From positions 1-64,000 of the forward strand of contig JABJBS010000100.1 in the NCBI GenBank assembly GCA_018668695.1: a stretch of DNA of 64,000 nt. The letters run 5' to 3'. The DNA comes from Deltaproteobacteria bacterium. Lineage in GTDB: Bacteria; Myxococcota; XYA12-FULL-58-9; JABJBS01. Below the pieces are notes generated by a model, which was given only the letters and a program-made list of their open reading frames with translations, was not told where the DNA came from and did not search any database. Shown piece by piece: positions 17,931-60,262 of this stretch. A program made the translations under genes and the position numbers. Numbering within the stretch: position 1 is the first letter of the stretch; each line of letters starts with the position of its first letter.

Positions 17931-19082
17931 TTAGTTTTTAGCGGAGTTTAAATCCGTAGGGATAGGCACTGCCAAAGGCGCAGTGGCCTTGGTTTCCCAG
18001 ACCTTATCTGGGAATTGGGCGCGAATTTTGACCCATTGTGTGGAATCGATTTCATCAAAAGCTGCCACCACCTGTGCGTCGAAAAGAGTCCCTGAGCCTC
18101 GGTGAATCTCAGCTACAACTTCTGGTAAGGGCCAAGCCTTTCGCCAAGGACGCGGCGAGAGCAAAGTTTCTACCGTGTCGGCCACCGCAAAAATTCGCGC
18201 GCCCAAACTGATTTCATGCCCAGAGAGCCCTTGTGGGTAACCACTTCCGTCCCATCGTTCGTGATGTTCTAAAACGAGTTGGCGAGGCCCTTCCAAGCCT
18301 TGCATCCCTTTTAAAAGCTCAGCACCCACCTCAACATGACGCCTGACAATTCTCCATTGCGCGTGGTCTAGGGGGCCAGCTTTGAGCAATATCGCATCGG
18401 GGATGCCTAGGTTACCGATATCATGCAGTAAAGCGCCGGTAGAGATATGAGCAAGTTCACTGCCATCTACGCCCATGGTTTTCGCCAAGAGGCAGGCGTA
18501 ACCTTGAACCCGTAAACAGTGCTCGCGGGTTTCGTGACCTTTGAGGGCGACCACGTTGAGCAAGAGTTCGGAGACATCTTGTTCTGTTTGCTCACGAAAT
18601 TTTTCGAGAGCCGCCTTTTGCTCACGCATCATGCGCGTAGCTTGAATCATGCCCTCTTCTATTGAACGTTGGCCACATCGCTCCCAATAAGCTTCCACGG
18701 AGCGGCGCATCAAAGAATTGAGTTCATCGATTTTCCAAGGCTTGCAAATCACGTGGCGGATCGAGTGTTCGTTCACAGCTTTAAGTGCGAGATCTAAATC
18801 ACACTGGCCGGTGACCAGTACGCAAATGGCATTGGGCTGAGCCCGGGATAAGTCATCTATCAACGTTAAGCCGTCGGGGCCGCCTGGCAAACCGTAATCC
18901 ACGGCAATCACGGCATAGTCATGCTGCAGGATAGCTGCTTCCGCTTCAGCCAGAGAACTCACCGTATCGACCTGGAACCCGAAGGTCTCCAGAGTGCGCT
19001 TGAAAACCTTCCTCACGCTCTCTTCGTCGTCTACAAACAAAATGTGCTCTTTTACATCCACTCTTAATTTCCTCGAAACCAA
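17931..19082 (-). CDS. Response regulator with HD-GYP c-di-GMP phosphodiesterase domain
   Basis: A 383-residue RpfG-type protein. The N-terminal receiver (about 12-130) has D18/D19 and phospho-acceptor D62. A coiled-coil-like linker (about 140-175) leads to an HD-GYP domain (about 178-345). The metal-binding HD is H220-D221 in LLHDIGN and the signature HHERWDGSGYP is complete (273-283), so c-di-GMP hydrolysis is expected. The stretch DTVETLLSPRPWRKA replaces the commoner DVFDALTSxRPYRKA. A cognate kinase is not adjacent; the hybrid kinase upstream is a candidate. Confidence 0.92.
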   Translation of the reverse strand: MVSRKLRVDVKEHILFVDDEESVRKVFKRTLETFGFQVDTVSSLAEAEAAILQHDYAVIAVDYGLPGGPDGLTLIDDLSRAQPNAICVLVTGQCDLDLALKAVNEHSIRHVICKPWKIDELNSLMRRSVEAYWERCGQRSIEEGMIQATRMMREQKAALEKFREQTEQDVSELLLNVVALKGHETREHCLRVQGYACLLAKTMGVDGSELAHISTGALLHDIGNLGIPDAILLKAGPLDHAQWRIVRRHVEVGAELLKGMQGLEGPRQLVLEHHERWDGSGYPQGLSGHEISLGARIFAVADTVETLLSPRPWRKAWPLPEVVAEIHRGSGTLFDAQVVAAFDEIDSTQWVKIRAQFPDKVWETKATAPLAVPIPTDLNSAKN

Positions 19083-19952: not shown

Positions 19953-20087
19953 GTTTGCATTCCTTTTGCGAAGCAACTTTTTGCACGCCAAAGAAGGTAA
20001 AGGAAATAAATAATCCCCCTTCACGCTTCAACAACGTCAGAGGTGTGTGCCATAAAACTAAGAACGACCAAATGTTATTGGAAAAAT

Positions 20088-21473
20088 ATGTATAAAGTCA
20101 TCGCAGCAGGTTTTATTAGTATCGCGTTAGCCCTCGGAGTAACCGTTGGGAACGCAGACACCCGCCCCACCGTCAGCAAAAAAATGGTCATCATTGGCGT
20201 AGACGGCATGACCTTCAATGTCATTGATCCACTCGTCGCTGAAGGTAAGCTGCCCACTTTCGCAAAGCTTATGCGCGAAGGCTCTCGCCTCAATCTCATC
20301 AGTGAAAAGCCTATGCGCTCACCCGCGCTTTGGACCACAGTTGCCACTGGGCACAATCGCAGCGTTCACCGCATCTTCGACTTCGTCACAGGCTCCTGGT
20401 TTTGGCCCAAGAAAGAGCGCAAGCAAAAGCAGCGGCTGGTCACATCCGATATGCGAGCAGCTCCCGCTATCTGGAACATGACATCCGCAGCTCAAAAGAA
20501 AAATCTCGTCGTAGGTTGGCTCAACACATGGCCAGCCGAAAAAATCGAGGGCGTCATGGTGGCTCCCTACGTAGCTCTTGGTCAGCGTAAGCAAACTTCC
20601 ATCAAAGGTAAGATTTACGACAACGCAAAAGACCAAACCCACCCAAGCGACCTATTCCCGGAAATTAAGCATCTCGTACGCTCCGCAGATAGCATCACCA
20701 AAGACGAGCTGGAACGCGTCGTGATTGCCCCGCCCAAAAGCTCAAAGCTCTACAAACAGGTGCCTAAGCTTGAGCGGTACCTCTACACAGCGCGCTGGTC
20801 CATCGCCAGTACACTAACAAACACCGCAATCGTTGAAGATCAGCTGCGTAAAAACCCCGATACCAATCTCGTGATGACCTACTTCGATGGCTCAGACACG
20901 CTGGCCCACCGCTTTTGGCTCCTGCGTCAGTCCGAAGAAGAGATTCGAACCCGGCTTCGTAACCAAAACTTCGATCCAGACATTGCTGCGGAAATGAAAG
21001 AAAGATTTGGGCGAATCGTCGACTCTTACTACGAAGTGCTAGACGAAATGCTCGCCCGCATCATTGATGCAGCGGGTCCAGGCGCCACCATCATGGTGGT
21101 CAGCGATCATGGCTGGCAGAACCTTAACCGCGATAAGGTCATCCACTCGGGCGTTCCATTCGATGGCAAACACAGCCTAGAAGGCGCAATGCTTGTTCAC
21201 GGGCCCCATATCAAGCCGGGAGTCTTTTCAGACCGCACGCTTTACGACATCACGCCAACCGCTCTTTATTTAATGGGCGTTGGCATTCCTGGCGACCTGC
21301 CTGGTGATATCGCGCTGGATCTGATCAGCGAGCCCTTCAAGCGCACTTTTCCGCCGATGGTTCTTGCCAAAGGCCAGAAAGCGGTTCCGATGCCAAGCAA
21401 CAACCTCCAGCCCGATACTCATTTTCACGAAACTGAAATCGAGCGTCTTAAATCGCTTGGCTACGTTCAGTAA
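20088..21473 (+). CDS. Exported type I phosphodiesterase/nucleotide pyrophosphatase family protein (copy 1)
   Basis: A 461-residue alkaline-phosphatase-superfamily hydrolase with a signal peptide (cleavage near residue 23). Metal and catalytic positions fit the family: D39 in IIGVDGM, a Ser nucleophile candidate in RSPALWTTVATGH, the DxxxH pair in YFDGSDTLAHRFW, DH in VVSDHGW, and a late His in GKHSLEG. The start at 20088 is chosen for GGAAA just upstream and for the signal peptide; an ATG-like start at 20043 adds an unlikely tail. A paralogue faces it at 21478-22836. Substrate unknown. Confidence 0.85.
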   Translation: MYKVIAAGFISIALALGVTVGNADTRPTVSKKMVIIGVDGMTFNVIDPLVAEGKLPTFAKLMREGSRLNLISEKPMRSPALWTTVATGHNRSVHRIFDFVTGSWFWPKKERKQKQRLVTSDMRAAPAIWNMTSAAQKKNLVVGWLNTWPAEKIEGVMVAPYVALGQRKQTSIKGKIYDNAKDQTHPSDLFPEIKHLVRSADSITKDELERVVIAPPKSSKLYKQVPKLERYLYTARWSIASTLTNTAIVEDQLRKNPDTNLVMTYFDGSDTLAHRFWLLRQSEEEIRTRLRNQNFDPDIAAEMKERFGRIVDSYYEVLDEMLARIIDAAGPGATIMVVSDHGWQNLNRDKVIHSGVPFDGKHSLEGAMLVHGPHIKPGVFSDRTLYDITPTALYLMGVGIPGDLPGDIALDLISEPFKRTFPPMVLAKGQKAVPMPSNNLQPDTHFHETEIERLKSLGYVQ

Positions 21474-21477
21474 TTCA

Positions 21478-22836
21478 TTATTCAAAATCTGAGCGGCGAG
21501 TCGAGCCTTTAGGAGGGTAACCCTTTTGGTAGGGAATCTCATGCTGGGGTTTGCGCTCATAGCTGCCGATCAACTCTAGAGCGCGCTTACTTGAAGCGCC
21601 GATGATACCGCCAACCACTTTGCCTGGCATATCACTGGCCACTGGCAGCCCGAGGTGGTGCAGTATCGATGGCGTGATGTCCAGAATAGAAACTTTCTTA
21701 AGCAGGTTCCCCGCGGGGATCCCAGGGCCCATCGCCAAGATGATCCCATCATCTAGATGATTGCCACTGTAAGGCTCGTCGCGCATGCGATGGGGTTCCG
21801 GAGCATCTCCAAACCCATGGTCACTTATCAAAAGCACCAGCGTGTCTGGACCCGCAACTTCAGCTAAGATTCGGCCAATCCGGGCATCCACATCCCGGTA
21901 ACAAGCCTCTACGACCTTACCAAAACGCTTTGATAATTCCGCTGCATGGGAAGCATCCAGCTTATGGCCCTTGAGCCGTGCACGAATTCTTTCTTCGCCC
22001 ATTTGAAAAATCCAAAATCGATGAAGCATAGAATCTGTGCATTGGAAATAAGTGAAGAGGACGTCTGGTTGAGCCTTCGCAGCGATGCTCCGGGTAATGT
22101 TTTCAACCGAACGGGCTCTCGCCAGACTCCATTTCAGTCCGTAAACATAACGTCTCAAATAAGGCAGTTTGTACAAAGCACTCGACTCAGGCGGCATGCT
22201 GGCAAAAGGGGTCATGTCTTCGGCACTTAAATCCGAGGCCTCTACGATAAGCTTGCGCACCGAGGATTCGTAAGACTTAGGCATCACCATATTCGGTGCG
22301 TCTCTGTAAAAACTGCCTTTGATGGTCGTTTGTCGCTTGTCTCCCTTAAGCTCGATAGGTGAAACCAAAACCGTTGACGCTACATCTTCCGCCGGCCACG
22401 TTGCCATCCAACCCACGCTGGCGGTCGAGATATTTTTCTCAGAAAGAATATTCCAAAGCGCTTTTGAACGGCGGTCTTTTGTGGTGACACGGATTTTCTC
22501 CTTCGAGCGAAACGGAGGAGGGTTAAAGTAAGTGTTGGACAGGTGATCCCAAATGCCGTGCTGGCCCGGATATTTTCCCGTCACGGCAGTGGTCCAAACC
22601 TGCGGGGTGCGCAATGGCCAAATAGACGCCAGATCTCCGCGCGCCCCCTCTTCCAACATGCGCTTCATATTCGGAGTCACTCCGGCTTTAGCGTATGGCT
22701 CCAATAAATTTAAAGAGACTCCGTCGACGCCGATCACAACGACCTTGGCCGGCTTTGCTTGTGCAGCGGAACCCAGCGCGCCAAAGAGCACAGAGCTAAT
22801 CATCGCAAAGGTCCAAGCCCAATGGTGCATTCTCAA
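21478..22836 (-). CDS. Exported type I phosphodiesterase/nucleotide pyrophosphatase family protein (copy 2)
   Basis: A 452-residue paralogue of the protein at 20088-21473, in opposite orientation with only 4 bp between the stops. It has a signal peptide (AAQA, about residue 27) and the same motif order: VIGVDGVS, RTPQVWTTAVTGKYPGQHGI, YFQCTDSMLHRFW, LISDHGFG, and GNHLDDG. The nucleophile candidate is Thr here and Ser in copy 1. The start overlaps the stop of the adenosyltransferase gene by 4 bp, so it may be co-transcribed from that gene. Substrate unknown. Confidence 0.85.
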   Translation of the reverse strand: MRMHHWAWTFAMISSVLFGALGSAAQAKPAKVVVIGVDGVSLNLLEPYAKAGVTPNMKRMLEEGARGDLASIWPLRTPQVWTTAVTGKYPGQHGIWDHLSNTYFNPPPFRSKEKIRVTTKDRRSKALWNILSEKNISTASVGWMATWPAEDVASTVLVSPIELKGDKRQTTIKGSFYRDAPNMVMPKSYESSVRKLIVEASDLSAEDMTPFASMPPESSALYKLPYLRRYVYGLKWSLARARSVENITRSIAAKAQPDVLFTYFQCTDSMLHRFWIFQMGEERIRARLKGHKLDASHAAELSKRFGKVVEACYRDVDARIGRILAEVAGPDTLVLLISDHGFGDAPEPHRMRDEPYSGNHLDDGIILAMGPGIPAGNLLKKVSILDITPSILHHLGLPVASDMPGKVVGGIIGASSKRALELIGSYERKPQHEIPYQKGYPPKGSTRRSDFE

Positions 22837-39076: not shown

Positions 39077-40471
39077 TTAATCAGACTCATCGTTCTCAGA
39101 GTCCTCGCCCATATTCAACTTTTGCAAACGGTAGCGAAAGCTTCGAAACGATAGCCCCAAAAGTTCAGCGGCTCGCTTTTTCACGCCACCGGTTCGGCGC
39201 ATCGCTTCCATGATGAAGCTAAGTTCAATCTGCTGCAGACGCCCTTCGAGATTCACACCTTCTTCCATGAACTCTAGAGGATCTCCCGACGGATCAGAGG
39301 CTTTTTGTAATATTTTCTCTGGCAGATCTTCGCGCTGAATAAACTCTTCAGCCGCCAAAGCCACCGCCCGTTCAATGCTATTTTCCAGCTCACGCACGTT
39401 ACCCGGAAATGGGTAACAACAAAGCGTAGCCATAGCGTCGGGCGCTATTCCACTGATTTGCTTCTCTGCATCGGTAGCATACTTGGCAACAAATCCACGG
39501 GCGAGCATCGGGATATCTTCTGCTCGCTCTCGTAAAGGGGCAACCCTTAGGCGTACAACATTGAGCCTGTAAAATAAGTCTTCGCGAAACGCTCCCTCAC
39601 CGACCATTTCCTCGAGGTCACGGTTGGTTGAAGCTATCAACCGGATGTCCACGTCTCGCTCTTTATCGTCTCCCACGCGCCGAACCCGTCGTTCCTGTAA
39701 CACACGAAGTAATTTCACCTGCATGGACAATGGCAGTTCACCAATTTCATCCAGTAGAAGCGTGCCTCCATTGGCCGCCTCAAAAAGTCCATCGCGAGCT
39801 TTAGAAGCCCCCGTGTAGGCACCGGCCACGTGGCCAAAGAGCTCTGCCTCGATCAAAGATTCAGGAATCGCTCCGCAGTTGATGGCAATAAAAGGTCCAG
39901 TCTTACGAGTACTGGCGTCATGAACTGCTCTTGAGACAAGCTCCTTGCCCGTGCCACTTTCACCTTCAATCAAGACATTGGATTTTGTAGGAGCAATCTT
40001 CGCAATCATCTTAATCAATGCACGGGTGGCACTGCTTTGGCCTAGAATTCTATCGGTCGTTATTCGCTGGTTAAGCTCAAGAGAGAGTTCTCGGTTCTCA
40101 CGAACCAGCTGTACTTTCTCCAAAGCCTTCGTACTCAGAGCCGAGAGTTCATCCACTTTGACCGGTTTAATTTGATAATCGTAAGCCCCAAGTCGCATCG
40201 CTTCGACCGCGGTCTCAGTCGTTGCAAACGCGGTGAGCATAATTGTTTGGGCATCAACTTGGCTTTCTTTGACAGCCTTGAGAACATCGAGCCCCGAGCC
40301 GTCCGGCAATTTCAAATCTGTAATCACGAGATCGAATTGGGCATCACGGCAACATTGTTGAGCTTGAGCGTAGGTGGCCGCAAGCTCCACTTCGTGGCCT
40401 TCGCCTTCCATGAGAATTTGCAGAAACTCTCTCATGGAGAGTTCATCGTCTACTATGAGTAATTTCGCCAC
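39077..40471 (-). CDS. pilR: Sigma-54-dependent response regulator PilR
   Basis: A 464-residue NtrC-family activator. The receiver (1-120) has phospho-acceptor D52; the AAA+ domain (about 140-380) has Walker A GESGTGKE (170-177), the sigma-54 loop as GAYTGA (217-222; Tyr for the commoner Phe), and Walker B LLLDEIGEL. The C-terminal Fis-type helix-turn-helix is KKRAAELLGLSFRSFRYRL. It sits directly after pilS in the pil cluster and should act on the sigma-54 promoter upstream of pilA at 28288-28303, about 11 kb away. Confidence 0.95.
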   Translation of the reverse strand: MAKLLIVDDELSMREFLQILMEGEGHEVELAATYAQAQQCCRDAQFDLVITDLKLPDGSGLDVLKAVKESQVDAQTIMLTAFATTETAVEAMRLGAYDYQIKPVKVDELSALSTKALEKVQLVRENRELSLELNQRITTDRILGQSSATRALIKMIAKIAPTKSNVLIEGESGTGKELVSRAVHDASTRKTGPFIAINCGAIPESLIEAELFGHVAGAYTGASKARDGLFEAANGGTLLLDEIGELPLSMQVKLLRVLQERRVRRVGDDKERDVDIRLIASTNRDLEEMVGEGAFREDLFYRLNVVRLRVAPLRERAEDIPMLARGFVAKYATDAEKQISGIAPDAMATLCCYPFPGNVRELENSIERAVALAAEEFIQREDLPEKILQKASDPSGDPLEFMEEGVNLEGRLQQIELSFIMEAMRRTGGVKKRAAELLGLSFRSFRYRLQKLNMGEDSENDESD

Positions 40472-40529
40472 ATGGACATCGTAGCTCTTGGTGTTTAACC
40501 ACTCAAGCTAAGCGCAGAAAACAAAGATT

Positions 40530-42227
40530 TTAATCTCGGCTTATTTTTCTAGCCTCTTCGCGAACGGGCAAGCGCCCTAACCGTGTCATTTGTCCGCCGG
40601 CATCTCCCGGCAAATCATCACGAGCAGATAAGACCACTTCCATTCGCGTCCCCTCATCGGGCTTCGAGTAAACCTCGATTCGGCCGCCGTGCGAGCTGAC
40701 AATCCTGTGGCATATGCTCAAACCTAAACCCGTACCGCCTTGCTTCGTCGTTTTGAAGGGTTCAAATATTTCATCTCTTAGCTCTGCAGGAATACCGGGT
40801 CCCTCATCCACGATGGCAATAACCACCATACCCTCACGTTCCTGAACAATCATTTTCACAGGTTTGCCGTCTGGTGATGCTTCCACTGCATTGCGAAGTA
40901 AATTCCACAGAACCCGGCGTACCTGCCCTTGGTCAAAGCGTACAAACAATCGGTCGGGTAGCTCCAGCTTGAGGCTGTGACGTTCCCAAGCCGGATCGTG
41001 GGATACAGCTTCCGCCACCTCTCGGCATAGCCCTGGGACATCGACCATCGTTTGAACCGGAGGCGTCGGTCTCGCAAAAATAAGAAACTCTTCAACGAGC
41101 CGGTTCAGGTGTTCCACTTCACGCAAAACGATATTGCTAAGCCGTAATTGCTTGTCGTCGCCCTCTTCGAAATAGCGCGTTAAAAGCTCAACCGAACCCG
41201 ACATAGAAGCCAATGGGTTTCTCAACTCATGGGCCATCGCGGCCGCCAATTCCCCAATGGATGCAAGCCGCTGTTTAATGCGTAAATCTTCTTCCAGAAT
41301 TCGAATCTCCGTACGGTCCTCCAAGACCAAGAGAGTGAGTTCTTCGTGCTCATCATCTTCGCTCTCATCATCGGGTTGTACCGGACATCGACTAAGCGCA
41401 AGAGAGACTTTTCGCTCTGCTATTTCAACTTCAACTTCACCAAAACTCTCATGGCGCGTTAAGAATCCGCGTAAGGAAAGAGGAACAACACTGCCGACCA
41501 GCTGATACATGGGCATCGCCAAAATATTCGAAGCTGCTTTATTGGCGGTTCGAATTTCCATCAATTCGTTGACTGCAATAATCCCCAGTGGAAGCGACTC
41601 TACCACCGCGCTGTGTAAATCACGCGCTCGAGCAAGGTTTTGTTGAGCGGTACTTGCCAGTAATCTGGCTCTTTCCAAAAGCTCCGCCAGGTAGCCCGAC
41701 AAAAGTCCCACCAGATAAAAAGCGCCCATATGCACCCCAACCTGGAATGCAAAATCTCTTACGGGTGGAATAGGCGTTAAGCCCGCTGTGGCAACACCGT
41801 AAAGCTGGAGCACCAACTGAGCGCCATAGATCACGCTGCATGCCGAGGCTAAGGCAATGGCTGCGCGCTGCCCCCCAATGATAGAACCATCGAGAATCGC
41901 GAGTAGGTACAAAAACGAAAATGGGCTGGCGATACCGCCGGTACCCTGAACGAACATCAAGGCAAAAAGCACCGTTCCAAAAAGGTACAACCGGCTCAGC
42001 ACAACAGGCTTCGTCCCTTTTTTGAGCAAAATGCCGACAACCAGAACCATGAGGTAGGTTCCGATGATCACCGCATAAAGCAATAAAGACGTACGGCGCT
42101 GAGGCCATTCAAAGTAATCTGCAAGGAAATTAAGGGTAAGAAGAACGGTGGCAATCACCGCCCTGAAGACGAGAAGCCAAGGTAAGCGTCGCTGTAAAGC
42201 AGCCTCTCGCTGAACCAACCCCATCAT
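40530..42227 (-). CDS. pilS: Sensor histidine kinase PilS
   Basis: A 565-residue kinase with about six N-terminal membrane helices (residues 15-180), the PilS hallmark. A cytoplasmic PAS-like region (about 200-310) and a short acidic insertion (DDESEDDEHEE, 286-296) come before the dimerisation domain with H333 in MAHELRNPLA. The ATPase domain has DEGPGIPAE and GGTGLGLSICHRIV. It lies between pilC and pilR, and in other bacteria senses pilin levels in the inner membrane. Confidence 0.94.
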   Translation of the reverse strand: MMGLVQREAALQRRLPWLLVFRAVIATVLLTLNFLADYFEWPQRRTSLLLYAVIIGTYLMVLVVGILLKKGTKPVVLSRLYLFGTVLFALMFVQGTGGIASPFSFLYLLAILDGSIIGGQRAAIALASACSVIYGAQLVLQLYGVATAGLTPIPPVRDFAFQVGVHMGAFYLVGLLSGYLAELLERARLLASTAQQNLARARDLHSAVVESLPLGIIAVNELMEIRTANKAASNILAMPMYQLVGSVVPLSLRGFLTRHESFGEVEVEIAERKVSLALSRCPVQPDDESEDDEHEELTLLVLEDRTEIRILEEDLRIKQRLASIGELAAAMAHELRNPLASMSGSVELLTRYFEEGDDKQLRLSNIVLREVEHLNRLVEEFLIFARPTPPVQTMVDVPGLCREVAEAVSHDPAWERHSLKLELPDRLFVRFDQGQVRRVLWNLLRNAVEASPDGKPVKMIVQEREGMVVIAIVDEGPGIPAELRDEIFEPFKTTKQGGTGLGLSICHRIVSSHGGRIEVYSKPDEGTRMEVVLSARDDLPGDAGGQMTRLGRLPVREEARKISRD

Positions 42228-42239
42228 CGATACCTGAGG

Positions 42240-43448
42240 TTAAGAACCAATTGAACCGGCCATGGAGAAAACAGGCAGGTACATCGAAATAACAAGTCCA
42301 CCGAGTAAGACCGCAAGAAATGCCATGATGGCAGGTTCTAGGAGACTCATCATCGTACCGATCGCGTCATCGACTTCATCATCGTAGAAATCTGCAATTT
42401 TATTAAGCATTGTATCCATCGCACCGGTCGATTCACCAACTGCAATCATTTGCACAACCATCGTGGGAAAGACTTTCATCTCGCCCAATGATTGCGCCAT
42501 AGCCTTACCCTCACTGATTCGAGCACGAACCGTTTGCAGTCCGCTCTCAATCACAACATTTCCGGCGGTACCGGCTACAATATCAAGTGCTTCTAAAATG
42601 GGTACACCCGACGCAAGCATCGTTCCCATCGTTCGCGTAAATTTAGCGACCGAGACTTTCTTAACAAGAGGCCCGAAAATAGGTGCCTGCAGGGCAAACT
42701 CATCAAAGAGTCGCCGTCCCTGTTTGCTCTTAATAAAAGAATAGGCTGCCGCAGAACCACCAATGAGGGTACCAAAAATCAAGAATGTATTATCACGGGT
42801 CCACTCACTCATATCGACAACTACTTGAGTCATGCCCGGCAATGCCTGCCCGAAATCCTCGAACATGTTTTGGAAAACCGGGATAACATAGATCAAGAGA
42901 ACCAGTGTCACCAGAAGCGACACGCCCAGGACCAATGAGGGATAGATCATTGCCCCTTTGACTTGCTTTACAAGCTTCGCATTTTTTTCAATGTACTCTG
43001 CAAGTCGGTTCAAAATCGTATCGAGAATACCACCGGTCTCACCGGCTTCAACCAAGTTCACGAAGAGGCGGTTGAATACCTTGGGGTGTTTGCGCAATGC
43101 ATCGGCCAGTGTCGAACCGGATTCAACCGATTGCTTTACCGCGATGACGATTTTCTTGAAGTCTGGGTTCTCCATCTGAGTGCCCAAAATATCTAGACAT
43201 TGAACCATCGGGAGTCCGGCATCAATCATGGTGGCGAACTGACGCGTAAAAACCATCAGGTCTTTGGGTTCAACACCTGTGGCACCTGGCATCCTGATAA
43301 TGATTTCGGTCGGTTTTTTGCGAACCTTCACAACTTGAAGCTGTTGCGCACGCAACCGCTGTGTAACCAGGGCTGAGGAATCGGCTTCCATTTCGCCGGA
43401 ACGGGTTTCCCCGACTCTCGTTTTGGCTTCCCAGATGAAAACTGCCAT
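42240..43448 (-). CDS. pilC: Type IV pilus inner-membrane platform protein PilC
   Basis: A 402-residue GspF-family protein with two T2SSF domains (about 70-190 and 270-395), each ending in hydrophobic helices. Typical runs include FTRQFATMIDAGLPMVQCL and FTRTMGTMLASGVPILEAL. It forms the platform on which the PilB and PilT motors act. It lies between pilT and pilS; a 12-bp gap separates it from pilS. Confidence 0.96.
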   Translation of the reverse strand: MAVFIWEAKTRVGETRSGEMEADSSALVTQRLRAQQLQVVKVRKKPTEIIIRMPGATGVEPKDLMVFTRQFATMIDAGLPMVQCLDILGTQMENPDFKKIVIAVKQSVESGSTLADALRKHPKVFNRLFVNLVEAGETGGILDTILNRLAEYIEKNAKLVKQVKGAMIYPSLVLGVSLLVTLVLLIYVIPVFQNMFEDFGQALPGMTQVVVDMSEWTRDNTFLIFGTLIGGSAAAYSFIKSKQGRRLFDEFALQAPIFGPLVKKVSVAKFTRTMGTMLASGVPILEALDIVAGTAGNVVIESGLQTVRARISEGKAMAQSLGEMKVFPTMVVQMIAVGESTGAMDTMLNKIADFYDDEVDDAIGTMMSLLEPAIMAFLAVLLGGLVISMYLPVFSMAGSIGS

Positions 43449-43518
43449 GTTTCCCCTTTTCCGCGGGCATTCTTAAAACTGTGTTACCCGAGGATCCAAT
43501 CTTTTATCAACCAACGTC

Positions 43519-44607
43519 TTACCGCAGCATCCGTTCCAGTTCCTCGAAGTTGGGACTGCGCGATAACGCGTCCTCCGCGAGAACTGTTTTGTTTTGAATC
43601 AAATCGTAAAGACATTGATTCATCGTCTGTGTTCCATATTTTGCCCCACCCACTTGAATGTGTGAATAAATTTGATGAATTTTCTCTTCACGGATGAGAT
43701 TTCGCACCGCAGCATTGGTCACCATGACCTCTGTTGCCAGGACTCGACCTCCGCCAATCTTGGGCAAAAGTTGCTGACTCATCACGCCTTGTAGGACAAA
43801 TGAGAGCTGCGCTCGCACATGAAGGCGTTGATATGTGGGGAATACATTAATAATTCGATTGATAGTCTGCACCGATGAATTGGTGTGCAGGGTCGCGAAA
43901 ACCAAGTGCCCTGTTTCACTGAGCGTCAAAGCTGCCTCAATGGTTTCCAGGTCGCGCATCTCCCCGATGAGAATAATATCGGGATCTTGGCGCAGAACAT
44001 ACTTGAGCGCTTCCTTAAAGCCTGCCGTATCGTGCCCAACTTCGCGCTGGTTGATGAGGCACATCTTATGCGGATGCAAATACTCTATGGGGTCTTCAAT
44101 CGTGATGATGTGACCACGCCGCTCAGTATTGAGCATGTGAATCACCGAAGCCAGAGTCGTGGATTTTCCGGAGCCCGTGGGCCCAGTAACGAGTACCAAA
44201 CCTGATGAGCGCCTGCCCAACTGTCGCATCGAGTCAGGGATACCCAGCTCTTTCATGGTTGGGACTTCAAACGGAATTTTACGAATGGCGGCAGCAACGG
44301 CTCCTCTTTGCATGAAGAAGTTGGCTCTAAATCTCGCCATGTTCTTCAAACCAAAAGAAAAATCGAGTTCTTTTTCCTCTTCGAATTTCTCACGTTGCTC
44401 TTCAGAAAGAACCGAAAAACACAGGCGCTGGGTGTCACCAGGCCGAAGAGCTTCTGTTTTTAATGGAGTCAACGCCCCATCAATACGCAGCTGAGGTGGC
44501 GAGCCTGTGGTGATATGAAGGTCACTGGCTTCATAATCCATCATAGCTCTTAAAAGAGCGTGCAGGTTCAAACCATTGCTTGAACTATCCGTAAGTTCCT
44601 CGCCCAT
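43519..44607 (-). CDS. pilT: Type IV pilus retraction ATPase PilT
   Basis: A 362-residue hexameric ATPase that powers pilus retraction. Walker A is GPTGSGKSTT; the Asp box contains ITIEDPIE, Walker B is DIILIGEMRD and the His box is HLVFATLHTNSS. The PilT C-terminal motif region is present. The ATG at 44607 is preferred over 44646 because AAGGGG lies just upstream; it then starts 7 bp after the pilB stop. The N-terminus DYEASDLHITTGSPP is typical. Confidence 0.96.
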   Translation of the reverse strand: MGEELTDSSSNGLNLHALLRAMMDYEASDLHITTGSPPQLRIDGALTPLKTEALRPGDTQRLCFSVLSEEQREKFEEEKELDFSFGLKNMARFRANFFMQRGAVAAAIRKIPFEVPTMKELGIPDSMRQLGRRSSGLVLVTGPTGSGKSTTLASVIHMLNTERRGHIITIEDPIEYLHPHKMCLINQREVGHDTAGFKEALKYVLRQDPDIILIGEMRDLETIEAALTLSETGHLVFATLHTNSSVQTINRIINVFPTYQRLHVRAQLSFVLQGVMSQQLLPKIGGGRVLATEVMVTNAAVRNLIREEKIHQIYSHIQVGGAKYGTQTMNQCLYDLIQNKTVLAEDALSRSPNFEELERMLR

Positions 44608-44614
44608 AAACCCC

Positions 44615-46312
44615 TTAATCGGCAGCCGACACGCGCGCGACTTCATCCGCCGTCGTCATGCCTTCAAGCATTTTCCGAACGGCTGACTGTCGTAAGGTAC
44701 GCATGCCCATACGAACGGCTTCGGATTTTAGTTCCGCCGTCGAAGCTCCATTCAGAAGCATCTCTTTGAGTTCGTCGTGCATGGTCATCACTTCGTAAAC
44801 AGCAACCCGTCCTTTGTAACCAGTTTCTGAGCACGTGTGACAACCTTCTCCCCGTTGAATTTTCGCGCCTTCAATTTGGGCGGGGCTCATTTGCAAATCG
44901 ACCAGCGTTTGCGGATTAACGGTTACCTCGACCTTGCAGTCACTGCAGATCTTTCGGCAGAGTCGTTGAGCCACAACCGCATTCAAACTGGCGGTAATCA
45001 AAAACGGCTCAACACCCATATTTAATAATCGAGAAACAGTAGATGGCGCATCATTGGTGTGAAGCGTTGATAAAACCAAGTGACCCGTAAGCGCCGCTTT
45101 AATCGCGATCTCAGCCGTCTCAAAGTCTCGAATCTCACCAACCATGATGATGTCTGGATCTTGTCGCAGAAAGGAACGCAGCGCTGACGCAAAGTTCAAG
45201 CCGATATCATCGTGCATCTGCACCTGATTGATCCCGTTTAAGTTAAATTCCACGGGATCTTCTGCAGTCGAGATGTTTTCAGTTGTTTGGTTAAGCTCTG
45301 AAAGGGCCGAATACAAAGTCGTCGTTTTACCGCTTCCCGTCGGCCCCGTGACCAAAACCATTCCGTAAGGCTGGTGAATACCGTGCAGAAAAGAATCCAG
45401 CGAATCTTGCTCAAAACCAAGCTTAGTCATATCCAGCTGCAGATTGCTCTTGTCTAGGAGTCGTAAAACAACCTTTTCGCCAAAAAGCGTCGGTAGCACG
45501 GAAACCCGAAAGTCCATCTCGCGGCCCTTACCAAGCTTGAGCTTGATACGACCATCTTGAGGTAAACGTCGTTCGGCGATGTCCAGCGAACTCATAATTT
45601 TAAGTCTCGAAATAACCGCATCACGTAGCTTCGGTGGCGGACTCATCACCTCATAAAGCGCACCATCAATGCGGTAACGCACACGAAATGTTTTCTCGTA
45701 AGATTCAACGTGAATATCAGAAACGCCCTTTTTGATAGCATCAATGAGAATCAAGTTAACGAGTTTTACGACCGGTGCATCTTCAGCACTCCGTTCTAAA
45801 TCGCTAACATCAATTGAATTTTCATCAACATCGAATTCGATTTCTTCTTCATCAAATTCTCGCATCACCGCGTCAAGCGACATCGCGACGTTGCCAAGGT
45901 AATACCGCTCAATGGCACGTGCTACTTGGCTTTCGTTGGCAACCACAACCTCTACGTTGTAGCCGCTCAAGAATTTGATATCGTCGATTGCGAAAATATT
46001 GGATGGATCTGCCATCGCTACAACCAGCGAAGGACCTGCCTTATGCACCGGAACGACTTGGTGCTTAATCGCCACATCTTGGGGCAAAAGCTTGATCACA
46101 TCAGGATCAATTTCAAAGTCGTCAAGATTGATCGAAGGTACATGATACTGACGCGAGAGAAACTCTAGAAGTTTACCCTCCTCAAGCATTCCCAGTTTGA
46201 CCAGCGAGGCTCCGAGGCGAACTCCAGAGCGACGTGTTTCAGACTGCGCTTCTTGCAGTTGTTCAACGCTGATCATGCTTTCGCGAACCAGCAGTTCTCC
46301 TAAACCCGCCAT
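44615..46312 (-). CDS. pilB: Type IV pilus extension ATPase PilB
   Basis: A 565-residue GspE/PilB ATPase that powers pilin assembly. The N-terminal MshE-type domain begins LGELLVRESMISVEQLQEAQ. The catalytic domain has Walker A GPTGSGKTTT, STAEDPVE, Walker B DIIMVGEIRD and HLVLSTLHTNDAPS. A four-Cys zinc motif is seen in CRKICSDC and CHTCSETGY. The ATG at 46312 has GGAGGAG about 12 nt upstream; ATGs at 46330 and 46354 are less likely. It is the first gene of the pilB-T-C-S-R run. Confidence 0.96.
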   Translation of the reverse strand: MAGLGELLVRESMISVEQLQEAQSETRRSGVRLGASLVKLGMLEEGKLLEFLSRQYHVPSINLDDFEIDPDVIKLLPQDVAIKHQVVPVHKAGPSLVVAMADPSNIFAIDDIKFLSGYNVEVVVANESQVARAIERYYLGNVAMSLDAVMREFDEEEIEFDVDENSIDVSDLERSAEDAPVVKLVNLILIDAIKKGVSDIHVESYEKTFRVRYRIDGALYEVMSPPPKLRDAVISRLKIMSSLDIAERRLPQDGRIKLKLGKGREMDFRVSVLPTLFGEKVVLRLLDKSNLQLDMTKLGFEQDSLDSFLHGIHQPYGMVLVTGPTGSGKTTTLYSALSELNQTTENISTAEDPVEFNLNGINQVQMHDDIGLNFASALRSFLRQDPDIIMVGEIRDFETAEIAIKAALTGHLVLSTLHTNDAPSTVSRLLNMGVEPFLITASLNAVVAQRLCRKICSDCKVEVTVNPQTLVDLQMSPAQIEGAKIQRGEGCHTCSETGYKGRVAVYEVMTMHDELKEMLLNGASTAELKSEAVRMGMRTLRQSAVRKMLEGMTTADEVARVSAAD

Positions 46313-46489
46313 AGTATAGGGCTCCTCCATCCCTGAACATCTTTGCCTAAACATCTAAAGCGGACAGACCCCACCCGGGGAATGCCAGCTCGGCCCAAAC
46401 AGTGTACCCCGTAAGACCACCATCGTCCAAAGATGTGCAAATATTCAAAAAAACGATGACGCAGCAGGTCATTAAAGTGGCAAGGTAGG

Positions 46490-57324: not shown

Positions 57325-58809
57325 ATGAACGAATCAAATATCAGCGTTTTGTTTGCAGACATCAAAGGCTACACCACCATCTCAAAAAGTGTGTCGGCCA
57401 CCAATCTCGAAGGCCTGCTGGATAATTACATTAAAACAATGTCGTCCATTATCGAGCACTTTAACGGGCGCATCGACAAGATTATGGGTGACGGAATCAT
57501 CGCCCTTTTCGAACCTCAGGACCAAGAGACGGCAGCCCATACCTACAATGCGGCGCTCGCAACCCTCGAAATGCAAAATGCAGTCACCAACCTTCGCGAC
57601 GACTGGCAACAGATGGGCGCTGGAATCGATCTGATCGTCCGCATTGGTCTGGCCACCGGAGATGTGGTCATTGGAGAGGTTAAAGCCGGAAAACACGAAG
57701 AATATACTGCGCTGGGAGATGCCGTAAATCTCGCATCCCGGCTTCAGGAACGAGCAACGCCTGGAACCGTTTTGGCGTGTCAGCAAACCCAAGCGGTTAT
57801 TGGGGCCAAGTTTCCCTGCCGGGTGAAGCCGAGTCTCGAAATCAAAGGCTACGACGACGTCTACGACGCCTATGAAATTACCGGCGCCCCCAACGAGGGA
57901 AACGAACAAACCGTACCAACAGCGGCAGCAAGCGCCTCTGATGATGATCTCAGACGGTCACAGCGCCAACCCTTAAGCATTGATATTACGTTTATCGGTG
58001 CAAAGGGGCTGCAAACCCATCCGAGTATCAATATCAGCGAAGGCGGCGTCTTCATTCAGACCCGTGAGCCCGAACCCATTGGAGCCCAGCTACGTATCGC
58101 AGCGAAAATTCCAACAGATCGCGGAACATTGCCTATGGTCTTAACCGGCCAGGTGGTTCGCCATGGCAGCCCTGCTGAAAACCCAGGCATGGGCGTAAAG
58201 TTTCTCGCCATTCAGGCCGAAACCGAAGACACCATTAATTATTTCGCCAACAGCGTTTACCACCTCTCGGATGCCTCGAGAGCACAAATCGTTGTTCGTG
58301 ACGGTCCTGCCTACAAACTGGTTCTCGATACACCACAACAGTTCCCCGAAGCGCACGGCCGAGCACTCACGGTTCACATCGAACGCATCAGCTCGGGCGA
58401 TATTTACTACTTCGAAAAGCGCCTGCTTCACGAGTTTGATAGAACCCGCCGTTATCAACACGAGTTTTCGTGTGTTGCCGTACGTATCGTGAACCTCGAC
58501 AAGCTCGTTGAACTTGAAACCCTCGAAGAAACCCTGATTGAAATCGCAGACCTCTTAAGCGCCTCGGTTCGAACCACCGATGAAGTGTTTTACTTCAAAG
58601 ACGGGCTTTTCTTTATTTTGGCTCCCGAAACTATGGCCAACCGAGTTTCAACACTCACACGAAGGATCGTCGAAGCAGTTCACACAATGTTTCTTCGCAA
58701 TCAGATTTTGGCACAGCTCTCAGTTTCTGCCGGCGCGTTCTCATTCGACGGCCACAACGCAGATCGACCTCAAGACATCCTCAAAAAGGCCTTAAGTCAC
58801 TGTGATTAA
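57325..58809 (+). CDS. Adenylate/guanylate cyclase-PilZ-degenerate GGDEF fusion
   Basis: A 494-residue soluble signalling protein with three parts. The class III cyclase domain (1-185) has metal ligands D12 (FADIKGYT) and D56 (IMGDGIIA), Lys52, and N135/R139 in GDAVNLASRL; the usual base-specifying Asp before the Tyr is Glu126. A PilZ-like domain (about 208-320) has R210xxxR214 and N236-x-S-x-x-G. The C-terminal region (about 365-494) resembles a GGDEF fold but has YFKDGLFFILAP where the active-site loop should be. Inference: c-di-GMP binding may gate cAMP or cGMP synthesis. Confidence 0.85.
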   Translation: MNESNISVLFADIKGYTTISKSVSATNLEGLLDNYIKTMSSIIEHFNGRIDKIMGDGIIALFEPQDQETAAHTYNAALATLEMQNAVTNLRDDWQQMGAGIDLIVRIGLATGDVVIGEVKAGKHEEYTALGDAVNLASRLQERATPGTVLACQQTQAVIGAKFPCRVKPSLEIKGYDDVYDAYEITGAPNEGNEQTVPTAAASASDDDLRRSQRQPLSIDITFIGAKGLQTHPSINISEGGVFIQTREPEPIGAQLRIAAKIPTDRGTLPMVLTGQVVRHGSPAENPGMGVKFLAIQAETEDTINYFANSVYHLSDASRAQIVVRDGPAYKLVLDTPQQFPEAHGRALTVHIERISSGDIYYFEKRLLHEFDRTRRYQHEFSCVAVRIVNLDKLVELETLEETLIEIADLLSASVRTTDEVFYFKDGLFFILAPETMANRVSTLTRRIVEAVHTMFLRNQILAQLSVSAGAFSFDGHNADRPQDILKKALSHCD

Positions 58810-58971: not shown

Positions 58972-59400
58972 ATGTTACGTCTTACACAGCTTAGCAATCA
59001 TGCCATCGCCCTTTTGGGGCAGTTGGCTGAAAACCGTGCTGAATGTCGGTGCAGTGCTCGTGACTTGGCAGATAAATTGAACCTGCCGATGACCACCACA
59101 GCGAAGATTCTTAAGAGCCTCACCCGTGAGGGACTCTTAATTTCCCATCGGGGAACGCTGGGTGGTTACGAACTGGCTAAAACACCAACGGAAATCACGA
59201 TTGCTGAAATTGTGGCTGCCCTAGAAGGCCCGATTCAGACTTGTCGAAAATCGGGTGTCGCCGGCGAATTTGTTCACCAGGCAATCGTCAGAGCCTTAGA
59301 GCAAATTTCACTCTATGAGATGGCAGCGCAGTTTTCACAGCAAGAAGTTAGAAACGAAGAGTCCCCAGAAGTTCTTGAGGAGGATAATACAAATGGCTAA
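58972..59400 (+). CDS. Rrf2 family transcriptional regulator
   Basis: A 142-residue winged-helix regulator. The helix-turn-helix is SARDLADKLNLPMTTTAKILKSL, and the wing is ISHRGTLGGYELAK. Iron-sulfur Rrf2 members usually carry three Cys in a cluster loop (near residues 90-105); here only C91 is present there, and C25 and C27 sit in the N-terminal part, so cluster binding is doubtful. Its end overlaps the rpoH start by 8 bp, so it likely regulates or is co-expressed with the heat-shock sigma factor. The upstream region has three WTARRCCCAA-like repeats. Confidence 0.85.
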   Translation: MLRLTQLSNHAIALLGQLAENRAECRCSARDLADKLNLPMTTTAKILKSLTREGLLISHRGTLGGYELAKTPTEITIAEIVAALEGPIQTCRKSGVAGEFVHQAIVRALEQISLYEMAAQFSQQEVRNEESPEVLEEDNTNG

Positions 59401-60262
59401 TTCAACAGCACTTACAATCAGCGAAAACAACATCGACAGCTACATGGCTGAGGTGAGTCGTCACCCCTTGCTGAGCCGAGACGAAGAGATGAGCTTAGCG
59501 TATGCGTTCCGCGATGACGGAGATGTATCTGCTGCCCACCGAATGGTCGTCGGAAACCTCCGATTTGTTGTGAAAATCGCTCACGAATACCGCCATTACG
59601 GCCTCAAGAAACTCGACTTGATTCAAGAGGGCAATATGGGCCTCATGATGGCTGTGAAAAAGTTTGATCCAGACCGTGGATATCGACTGATTTCTTATGC
59701 CGTCTGGTGGATTCGAGCACAAATCCAGAGCTTTATTCAGCGGTCGTGGTCCATGGTCAAAGTGGGCATGACAGGCTCTCGGCGAAAGCTTTTCTTCAAG
59801 CTGCGCTCGGAACGCGCACTTCTGGAAAAGAATGCCTTGCCAGGTGAAAAGCCGACCAACGCCGACATCGCCAAGCATCTCGGAGTCTCCGAAGCGGATG
59901 TAGATGCCATGGAAGTGGTGATGGCTGGACGAGATTTCTCGCTGGATACAACACTCACCGACGAGAGCGGAACTTCACACCTCGACCTACTGGCCGACGA
60001 GAATGCTTCGCAGGAAGAGTATGTTGCTCAACTCGAGGAACACCAAGTCGTACGTGAAAAGCTTGCTGAAGTTGCTGCCGACTCAAACGAGAAAGAGCAG
60101 TACATCATTGAGCACCGCCTACTCGACGAAGAACCCATGAGTCTCCAAGAAATTGGAACCCATTTTGGGGTCTCTAGAGAGCGCATCCGTCAGCTTGAAA
60201 GCCGCGTGATGGGCAAACTTAAGCTCTCCCTTGAAGGCCTCCGCCCGAGCCCTCAAGCCTAG
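59393..60262 (+). CDS. rpoH: RNA polymerase heat-shock sigma factor RpoH
   Basis: A 289-residue group 2/3 sigma-70 protein. Region 1.2 is IDSYMAEVSRHPLLSRDEE, and region 2 includes YGLKKLDLIQEGNMGLM and YAVWWIRAQIQSFI. The RpoH box appears as RRKLFFKLR, which marks the heat-shock group over RpoD. Region 4 is SLQEIGTHFGVSRERIRQLE. GAGGAGGATAATACAA before the ATG at 59393 fixes the start; a frame opening at 59315 lies inside the Rrf2 gene. The stop is followed by a 335-bp non-coding stretch. Confidence 0.92.
   Translation: MANSTALTISENNIDSYMAEVSRHPLLSRDEEMSLAYAFRDDGDVSAAHRMVVGNLRFVVKIAHEYRHYGLKKLDLIQEGNMGLMMAVKKFDPDRGYRLISYAVWWIRAQIQSFIQRSWSMVKVGMTGSRRKLFFKLRSERALLEKNALPGEKPTNADIAKHLGVSEADVDAMEVVMAGRDFSLDTTLTDESGTSHLDLLADENASQEEYVAQLEEHQVVREKLAEVAADSNEKEQYIIEHRLLDEEPMSLQEIGTHFGVSRERIRQLESRVMGKLKLSLEGLRPSPQA

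Follow-up and report, generated by a model that had tools for sequence, protein, structure and literature searches.

Here, we describe a protein, encoded in the 64,000-nucleotide stretch of DNA analysed (the window), in which a nucleotide cyclase, a PilZ domain and a degenerate GGDEF domain are joined, and which we read from its sequence as a putative cytosolic, homodimeric class IIIb adenylyl cyclase with catalysis controlled by c-di-GMP (probability roughly 0.55). In the proposed mechanism, c-di-GMP would bind, through RRSQR and NISEGG, the PilZ domain that immediately follows the catalytic domain, and this binding would shift the two catalytic domains of the dimer relative to each other, so that cAMP synthesis from ATP would go up or down. 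The dead C-terminal GGDEF domain would make no c-di-GMP; its part would lie in dimerisation or docking, and its RTTD may be a second c-di-GMP site. We infer the cyclase activity, the binding of c-di-GMP, the coupling and its sign, and the role of the GGDEF-like domain. The preliminary description had suggested that cyclic-nucleotide and c-di-GMP signalling meet in this polypeptide; the domain content, the PilZ motifs and the cyclase residues agree with that suggestion, and its binding and coupling steps stand as predictions.

Pfam finds the domains in the order Guanylate_cyc, PilZ, GGDEF, with no further recognised sensor (Table 1). All three matches lie over the curated cut-offs and so are not chance matches, which bears out the three-domain order first proposed. 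The ORF is uninterrupted and occupies exactly the interval given, with 102 bases between the end of the upstream Omp85-family gene and its ATG; this gene end and the in-frame TAG two codons 5' argue that no N-terminal sensor or membrane part is hidden. No CHASE2 half was found in the protein (Pfam; the in-frame stop again lying just upstream), and no transmembrane-like stretch is present in the 494 residues (highest 19-residue hydropathy 1.47). Since the PilZ and dead GGDEF domains, which in other proteins both serve as c-di-GMP receptors, are the sole other recognised modules and there is no membrane or CHASE2 part, c-di-GMP is the likeliest input. The predicted model of the protein has a pTM of 0.45 and gives no relative placing of the domains. 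Rfam returned nothing in the 64,000-nucleotide window at gathering scores, and a promoter and terminator scan found 2 and 2, against 1.8 and 2.6 expected.

Table 1. Positions of the cyclase ORF and its features in the window, and of related gene pairs at other loci
Feature	Position	Strand	Remarks
Whole ORF	57325..58809	+	494 aa, ATG; in-frame TAG two codons upstream
Class IIIb nucleotide cyclase catalytic domain, aa 4-177	57334..57855	+	Pfam PF00211 Guanylate_cyc
D12, first metal Asp	57358..57360	+	Alignment with CyaB, CyaC, Cya2
K52, base-specifying Lys	57478..57480	+	Lys in CyaB and CyaC, Glu in guanylyl cyclase Cya2
D56, second metal Asp	57490..57492	+	Alignment with solved cyclases
E126, Glu probably meant in the preliminary description	57700..57702	+	Aligns with Asp in CyaB and CyaC
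T128, base-specifying Thr of class IIIb	57706..57708	+	Thr in CyaB and CyaC
N135 and R139, transition-state residues	57727..57741	+	Alignment; nearly invariant among 22 rows
PilZ domain, aa 209-305	57949..58239	+	Pfam PF07238; TIGR02266 below cut-off
RRSQR (210-214), RxxxR-type PilZ motif	57952..57966	+	Read from sequence
NISEGG (236-241), (D/N)xSxxG-type PilZ motif	58030..58047	+	Read from sequence
Linker, aa 306-361	58240..58407	+	pLDDT under 50 in nearly whole linker
Degenerate GGDEF domain, aa 362-489	58408..58791	+	Pfam PF00990
RTTD (R416-D419), I-site-like RxxD	58570..58581	+	Spacing as in SgmT
KDGLF, remnant of GGDEF signature	58597..58611	+	Alignments and sequence
TPR gene and CHASE2-cyclase, L215	478-3840 and 3853-6219		TPR under cut-off; transglutaminase-like under cut-off
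TPR gene and CHASE2-cyclase, L040	4411-2729 and 2713-356		TPR under cut-off; no transglutaminase-like match
TPR gene and CHASE2-cyclase, L041	6978-5275 and 5249-3042		TPR over cut-off; transglutaminase-like under cut-off
CHASE2-cyclase pair, L114	1-2154 and 2061-4055		Seen only by GDC(D/E)D motif

The PilZ domain is matched by Pfam with E 6.8e-13 (49.3 bits, cut-off 22.5) and by TIGR02266 with 52 bits, below the curated cut-off of 68.7. Since no PDB chain matched the PilZ stretch (phmmer, E<=1), its identity rests on the Pfam profile, the sub-cut-off TIGR02266 match and the motifs; pLDDT in the PilZ blocks of the predicted model is about 50-77. RxxxR and (D/N)xSxxG are the c-di-GMP motifs of PilZ domains; the same genome has 39 other PilZ stretches, and 32 of them keep both motifs too. 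By phmmer, the closest PilZ relatives in the compared set are short PilZ proteins from other phylum members (51-60 bits; L043-L045, L047-L049), followed by a stretch on contig C27 of the same genome (39 bits); the PilZ regions of three cyclase relatives score lower, with 30-31 bits for the paralog on contig C325 and 17 and 16 bits for the proteins of genomes G002 and G043. Nine loci were taken for this comparison; no motif-bearing ORF was obtained from L046 or L051, and L050 had no hit at E<=1. Because the nearest PilZ domains are those of short phylum PilZ proteins and not those of the cyclase-PilZ relatives, PilZ may have been joined to this cyclase by an independent fusion. In L043, L044, L045 and L048 the short PilZ proteins are encoded by a pair of adjacent ORFs, and some of the short PilZ proteins have a hydrophobic C-terminus. 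Some of the short PilZ genes in this set are followed by what reads, from its sequence, as an FtsJ-like methyltransferase gene. A different PilZ arrangement is seen on contig C177 of the same genome (L214 397-1557, minus strand), where an N-terminal PilZ is joined to a histidine-kinase-type ATPase domain and the adjoining gene encodes a GGDEF domain whose GGEEF signature is intact.

The GGDEF domain is likewise recognised by Pfam (E 6.3e-10, 39.5 bits, cut-off 23.8), and the predicted model is poor in this part, with blocks of pLDDT 42-56. KDGLF stands in place of the GG(D/E)EF signature, and the first metal Asp reads Asn when the domain is aligned to DosC by phmmer or Arg when it is aligned by MAFFT, so diguanylate cyclase activity is not expected. 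An active diguanylate cyclase was accordingly rejected, and the GGDEF-like fold lacking its active site, as initially described, is confirmed in both alignments. Nine residues separate R416 of the RTTD from K425, the same spacing as from R763 to G772 in SgmT. The RTTD was considered as strong evidence of c-di-GMP binding and this case was weakened by the paralogs, since RxxD, counted at the aligned column and not as the first RxxD anywhere in the row, occurs in 17 of 22 GGDEF paralogs of the genome, including 7 of the 10 without the signature (the 22 being 24 GGDEF matches minus that of the window protein and minus C208, which overlaps a cyclase match). RTTD therefore permits c-di-GMP binding and argues for it only weakly. 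A further version of the proposal, in which c-di-GMP would be converted into cAMP output within one soluble protein through two stacked sites, PilZ and the I-site of the dead GGDEF, as a dose-reading relay linking the two principal second messengers of bacteria, opposite in direction to the cAMP-controlled c-di-GMP enzymes, is doubtful.

In the M. xanthus protein SgmT, according to the portions of the report consulted here, a C-terminal inactive GGDEF binds c-di-GMP through the Arg of its RxxD, and c-di-GMP changed neither autophosphorylation nor phosphotransfer, the GGDEF instead placing the protein (PMC3509222). As the kinase activity of SgmT is unaltered, c-di-GMP binding need not mean catalytic control, and since the SgmT GGDEF does exactly this, placement of the enzyme by its tail is a serious, if unlikely, rival. 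Under that rival, c-di-GMP on PilZ or the dead GGDEF would sequester the cyclase at a site or partner and make cAMP local while leaving specific activity unchanged. For both SgmT and PopA, the same portions describe such a use of an inactive GGDEF whose I-site is intact (PMC3509222), and the SgmT spacing is present in the window protein; against placement, the position of PilZ directly behind the catalytic domain would suit allosteric control.

Relatives were searched at three levels, with candidates scored per genome and the best 27 (58 genomes), the best 12 (195 genomes) and the best 11 (193 genomes, from a larger group) taken. In the whole-protein search of 58 genomes of relatives, only the window protein covers the whole query among the matches listed; the next-best matches cover the cyclase and PilZ region only, and come from G002 (5-311), C325 of the same genome (5-300) and G043 (5-331). 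With the PilZ-GGDEF stretch, no other match listed from 195 phylum genomes covers both parts; most cover PilZ, and the longest reach from PilZ is 6-164 of 294 (L047). Of 193 phylum genomes, 3 gave essentially full-length matches to a four-stretch cyclase-PilZ profile (the present genome with two, G002 and G043 with one each), the remaining matches listed ending at or before position 227 of 315. An ortholog with the same three-part order was not found among the matches listed from the 58, 195 and 193 genomes, and the conservation of the arrangement is consequently unusable as evidence. Beyond the phylum, this order was covered by two pattern scans and a plasmid search: a scan of genome contigs with the single protein gave 28 pattern matches, none of them a relative by tblastn, the second scan found 118 relatives, of which 80 were kept, and none of 606 plasmid records covered 80% of the query by tblastn. 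Among the profile matches of the same genome, the window protein and C325 are the only cases of a cyclase and a PilZ domain sharing a reading frame, as judged from match places and frame lengths.

The C325, G002 and G043 proteins all carry CHASE2 and cyclase domains and give no GGDEF match by Pfam, and PilZ is recognised in C325 and G043 and not in G002 (E<=0.01). The G002 protein (L040 356-2713, minus strand) ends in a PilZ-like tail that has lost both c-di-GMP motifs and still aligns with the PilZ domains of its relatives, which indicates that c-di-GMP binding is not a necessary property of such cyclase tails. A gene with a TPR match directly precedes a CHASE2-cyclase gene in four phylum genomes, as a conserved two-gene unit (Table 1). 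A tree was built from 98 cyclase domains, after removal of one near-duplicate from the 99 rows extracted; in it, the window protein groups with C325, G002, G043 and the phylum cyclases L012, L013 and L015, which have no PilZ motif, in a clade of 7 with 100/95 support; the row of the window protein has a long branch (1.66), and the inner forks of the clade are weak. From these sequences, the window protein may derive from a CHASE2-type cyclase whose membrane half was lost and whose c-di-GMP tail was either acquired or retained in remodelled form. We read the survival of its catalytic residues along a branch of 1.66 changes per column as a hint that catalysis has stayed under selection.

These relatives also bear on the alternative that the enzyme is a constitutive adenylyl cyclase whose PilZ and GGDEF-like tail is structural and non-binding, serving dimerisation or protein contacts only. 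The G002 relative keeps its cyclase though its PilZ-like tail lost both motifs, the GGDEF signature is lost in the window protein, and this protein is a single-genome, long-branch case; with both PilZ ligand motifs intact in the window protein, however, we consider this alternative improbable.

For the cyclase domain (Pfam E 2.7e-20, 73.2 bits, cut-off 21.9), the closest PDB chain by sequence is CyaB of P. aeruginosa (3r5g, E 1.2e-26). The predicted model is confident across residues 1-190 (block pLDDT 82-97), and fold comparison, limited to about these residues, gave Z 28.4 and rmsd 1.6 over 191 aligned residues against CyaB and Z 26.9 against CyaC (1wc1). All six catalytic residues, D12, K52, D56, T128, N135 and R139, are intact; their roles as named in Table 1 are those of the corresponding residues in class III cyclases. 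Lys and Thr are the base-specifying pair of class IIIb cyclases. The preliminary description had placed a Glu where the base-specifying Asp usually lies and had held the choice of substrate open; alignments with CyaB (3r5g) and CyaC (1wc0) instead put the base-specifying position at T128, the residue after Tyr127, whereas E126 is the residue before it. E126 was rejected as a substrate determinant, as it aligns with Asp in CyaB and CyaC and E or D is common at this position (DYT in 24 and EYT, an ordinary form, in 19 of 97 cyclase motifs, which come from loci found by cyclase searches with related queries and are not a random sample). The argument for an open choice fails, since K52 and T128 are the pair found in the adenylyl cyclases CyaB and CyaC, and ATP is therefore the expected substrate: by its sequence, the protein is a class IIIb cyclase and is predicted to be an adenylyl cyclase. 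That the substrate is GTP, or that the enzyme is non-specific, would be compatible with any reading of the tail but is very unlikely, for although Thr at the base position is in principle less selective than Asp, Lys52 is retained where the guanylyl cyclase Cya2 has Glu, with Gly at its Thr128 position, and CyaB and CyaC, adenylyl cyclases by their PDB titles, share Lys and Thr.

At 5.87 Mb in 424 contigs and 98.6% completeness, the host genome has 40 cyclase, 24 GGDEF and 40 PilZ matches to the profiles (E<=0.001); the counts take in fragments as well as one PilZ match that falls below the cut-off. The GGDEF and PilZ numbers favour the proposed c-di-GMP control. In the window, TamB- and Omp85-family genes lie upstream of the cyclase gene, and genes for Rrf2, a sigma-70-family factor, CTP synthase, a HAD hydrolase and a lipid A acyltransferase lie downstream. 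The gene had been described as near motility genes, which holds loosely: type IV pilus-type genes (pilB/T/C/S/R-like Pfam matches) are present at 39077-46354, but on the other strand and 11-18 kb away, with rho and coaBC-like genes in between. A motility operon around the cyclase gene was rejected, its neighbours being envelope, regulatory and CTP-synthase genes. The pilus-type cluster comprises a T2SSE with MshEN, a second T2SSE, a T2SSF, a PilS-like kinase and a sigma-54 response regulator, and it is the PilB-like ATPase that carries the MshEN; the literature source consulted lists domains of this type as binding c-di-GMP. Elsewhere in the window, a response regulator with an HD_5 domain (17931-19082) is possibly of the HD-GYP type and a c-di-GMP phosphodiesterase, and two type I phosphodiesterase / nucleotide pyrophosphatase genes face each other at 20043-22836. 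As listed, the Rrf2 and sigma-70-family ORFs (58972-60262) overlap by 86 bases, and the true start of the sigma-70-family gene is probably further downstream than listed.

No described cyclase-PilZ-GGDEF protein was found among the matches listed from the open-licence literature. A review puts the number of Pfam architectures containing PilZ at 221; the catalytic partners that it lists in that passage are GGDEF, EAL and Peptidase_S8, a nucleotide cyclase not being mentioned there, and cyclase-PilZ may be among the 221. Like CyaB (3r5g) and CyaC (1wc0), the window cyclase has the catalytic domain, the metal Asp pair, the Lys/Thr pair and the Asn/Arg pair; unlike them, its catalytic domain is N-terminal with the accessory domains after it, as a tail of PilZ and dead GGDEF. 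The CHASE2-cyclase-PilZ proteins (C325 = L039, G043 = L041 and the eroded G002 = L040) similarly have the cyclase and then the PilZ region, whereas the window protein has no CHASE2 or membrane half and no upstream TPR-type gene, and has an added GGDEF-like tail. Its GGDEF resembles those of SgmT and PopA in the degenerate A-site preceded by RxxD, with the nine-residue spacing in SgmT, but SgmT is a histidine kinase and the window protein a cyclase for which c-di-GMP binding is a prediction. In Dictyostelium, c-di-GMP raises cAMP through adenylate cyclase A (PMC10399225), a eukaryotic pathway in which no c-di-GMP domain in that cyclase is apparent from the portion of text consulted. Bd1971 of Bdellovibrio is described as a cAMP-sensing EAL phosphodiesterase, its turnover of c-di-GMP being under cAMP control, and the title of one reference names a cAMP-dependent diguanylate cyclase. 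In these two proteins cAMP and c-di-GMP meet in one polypeptide, as proposed for the window protein. The diguanylate cyclase is reportedly from Leptospira. The window protein is small and predicted to be soluble and has no other recognised input, which makes the idea testable with one purified protein. Bd1971 and the cAMP-dependent diguanylate cyclase run from cAMP to c-di-GMP turnover; the window protein would run the opposite way, from c-di-GMP to cAMP, and if this is true, a cyclase under the direct control of c-di-GMP within one chain would be the counterpart to Bd1971.
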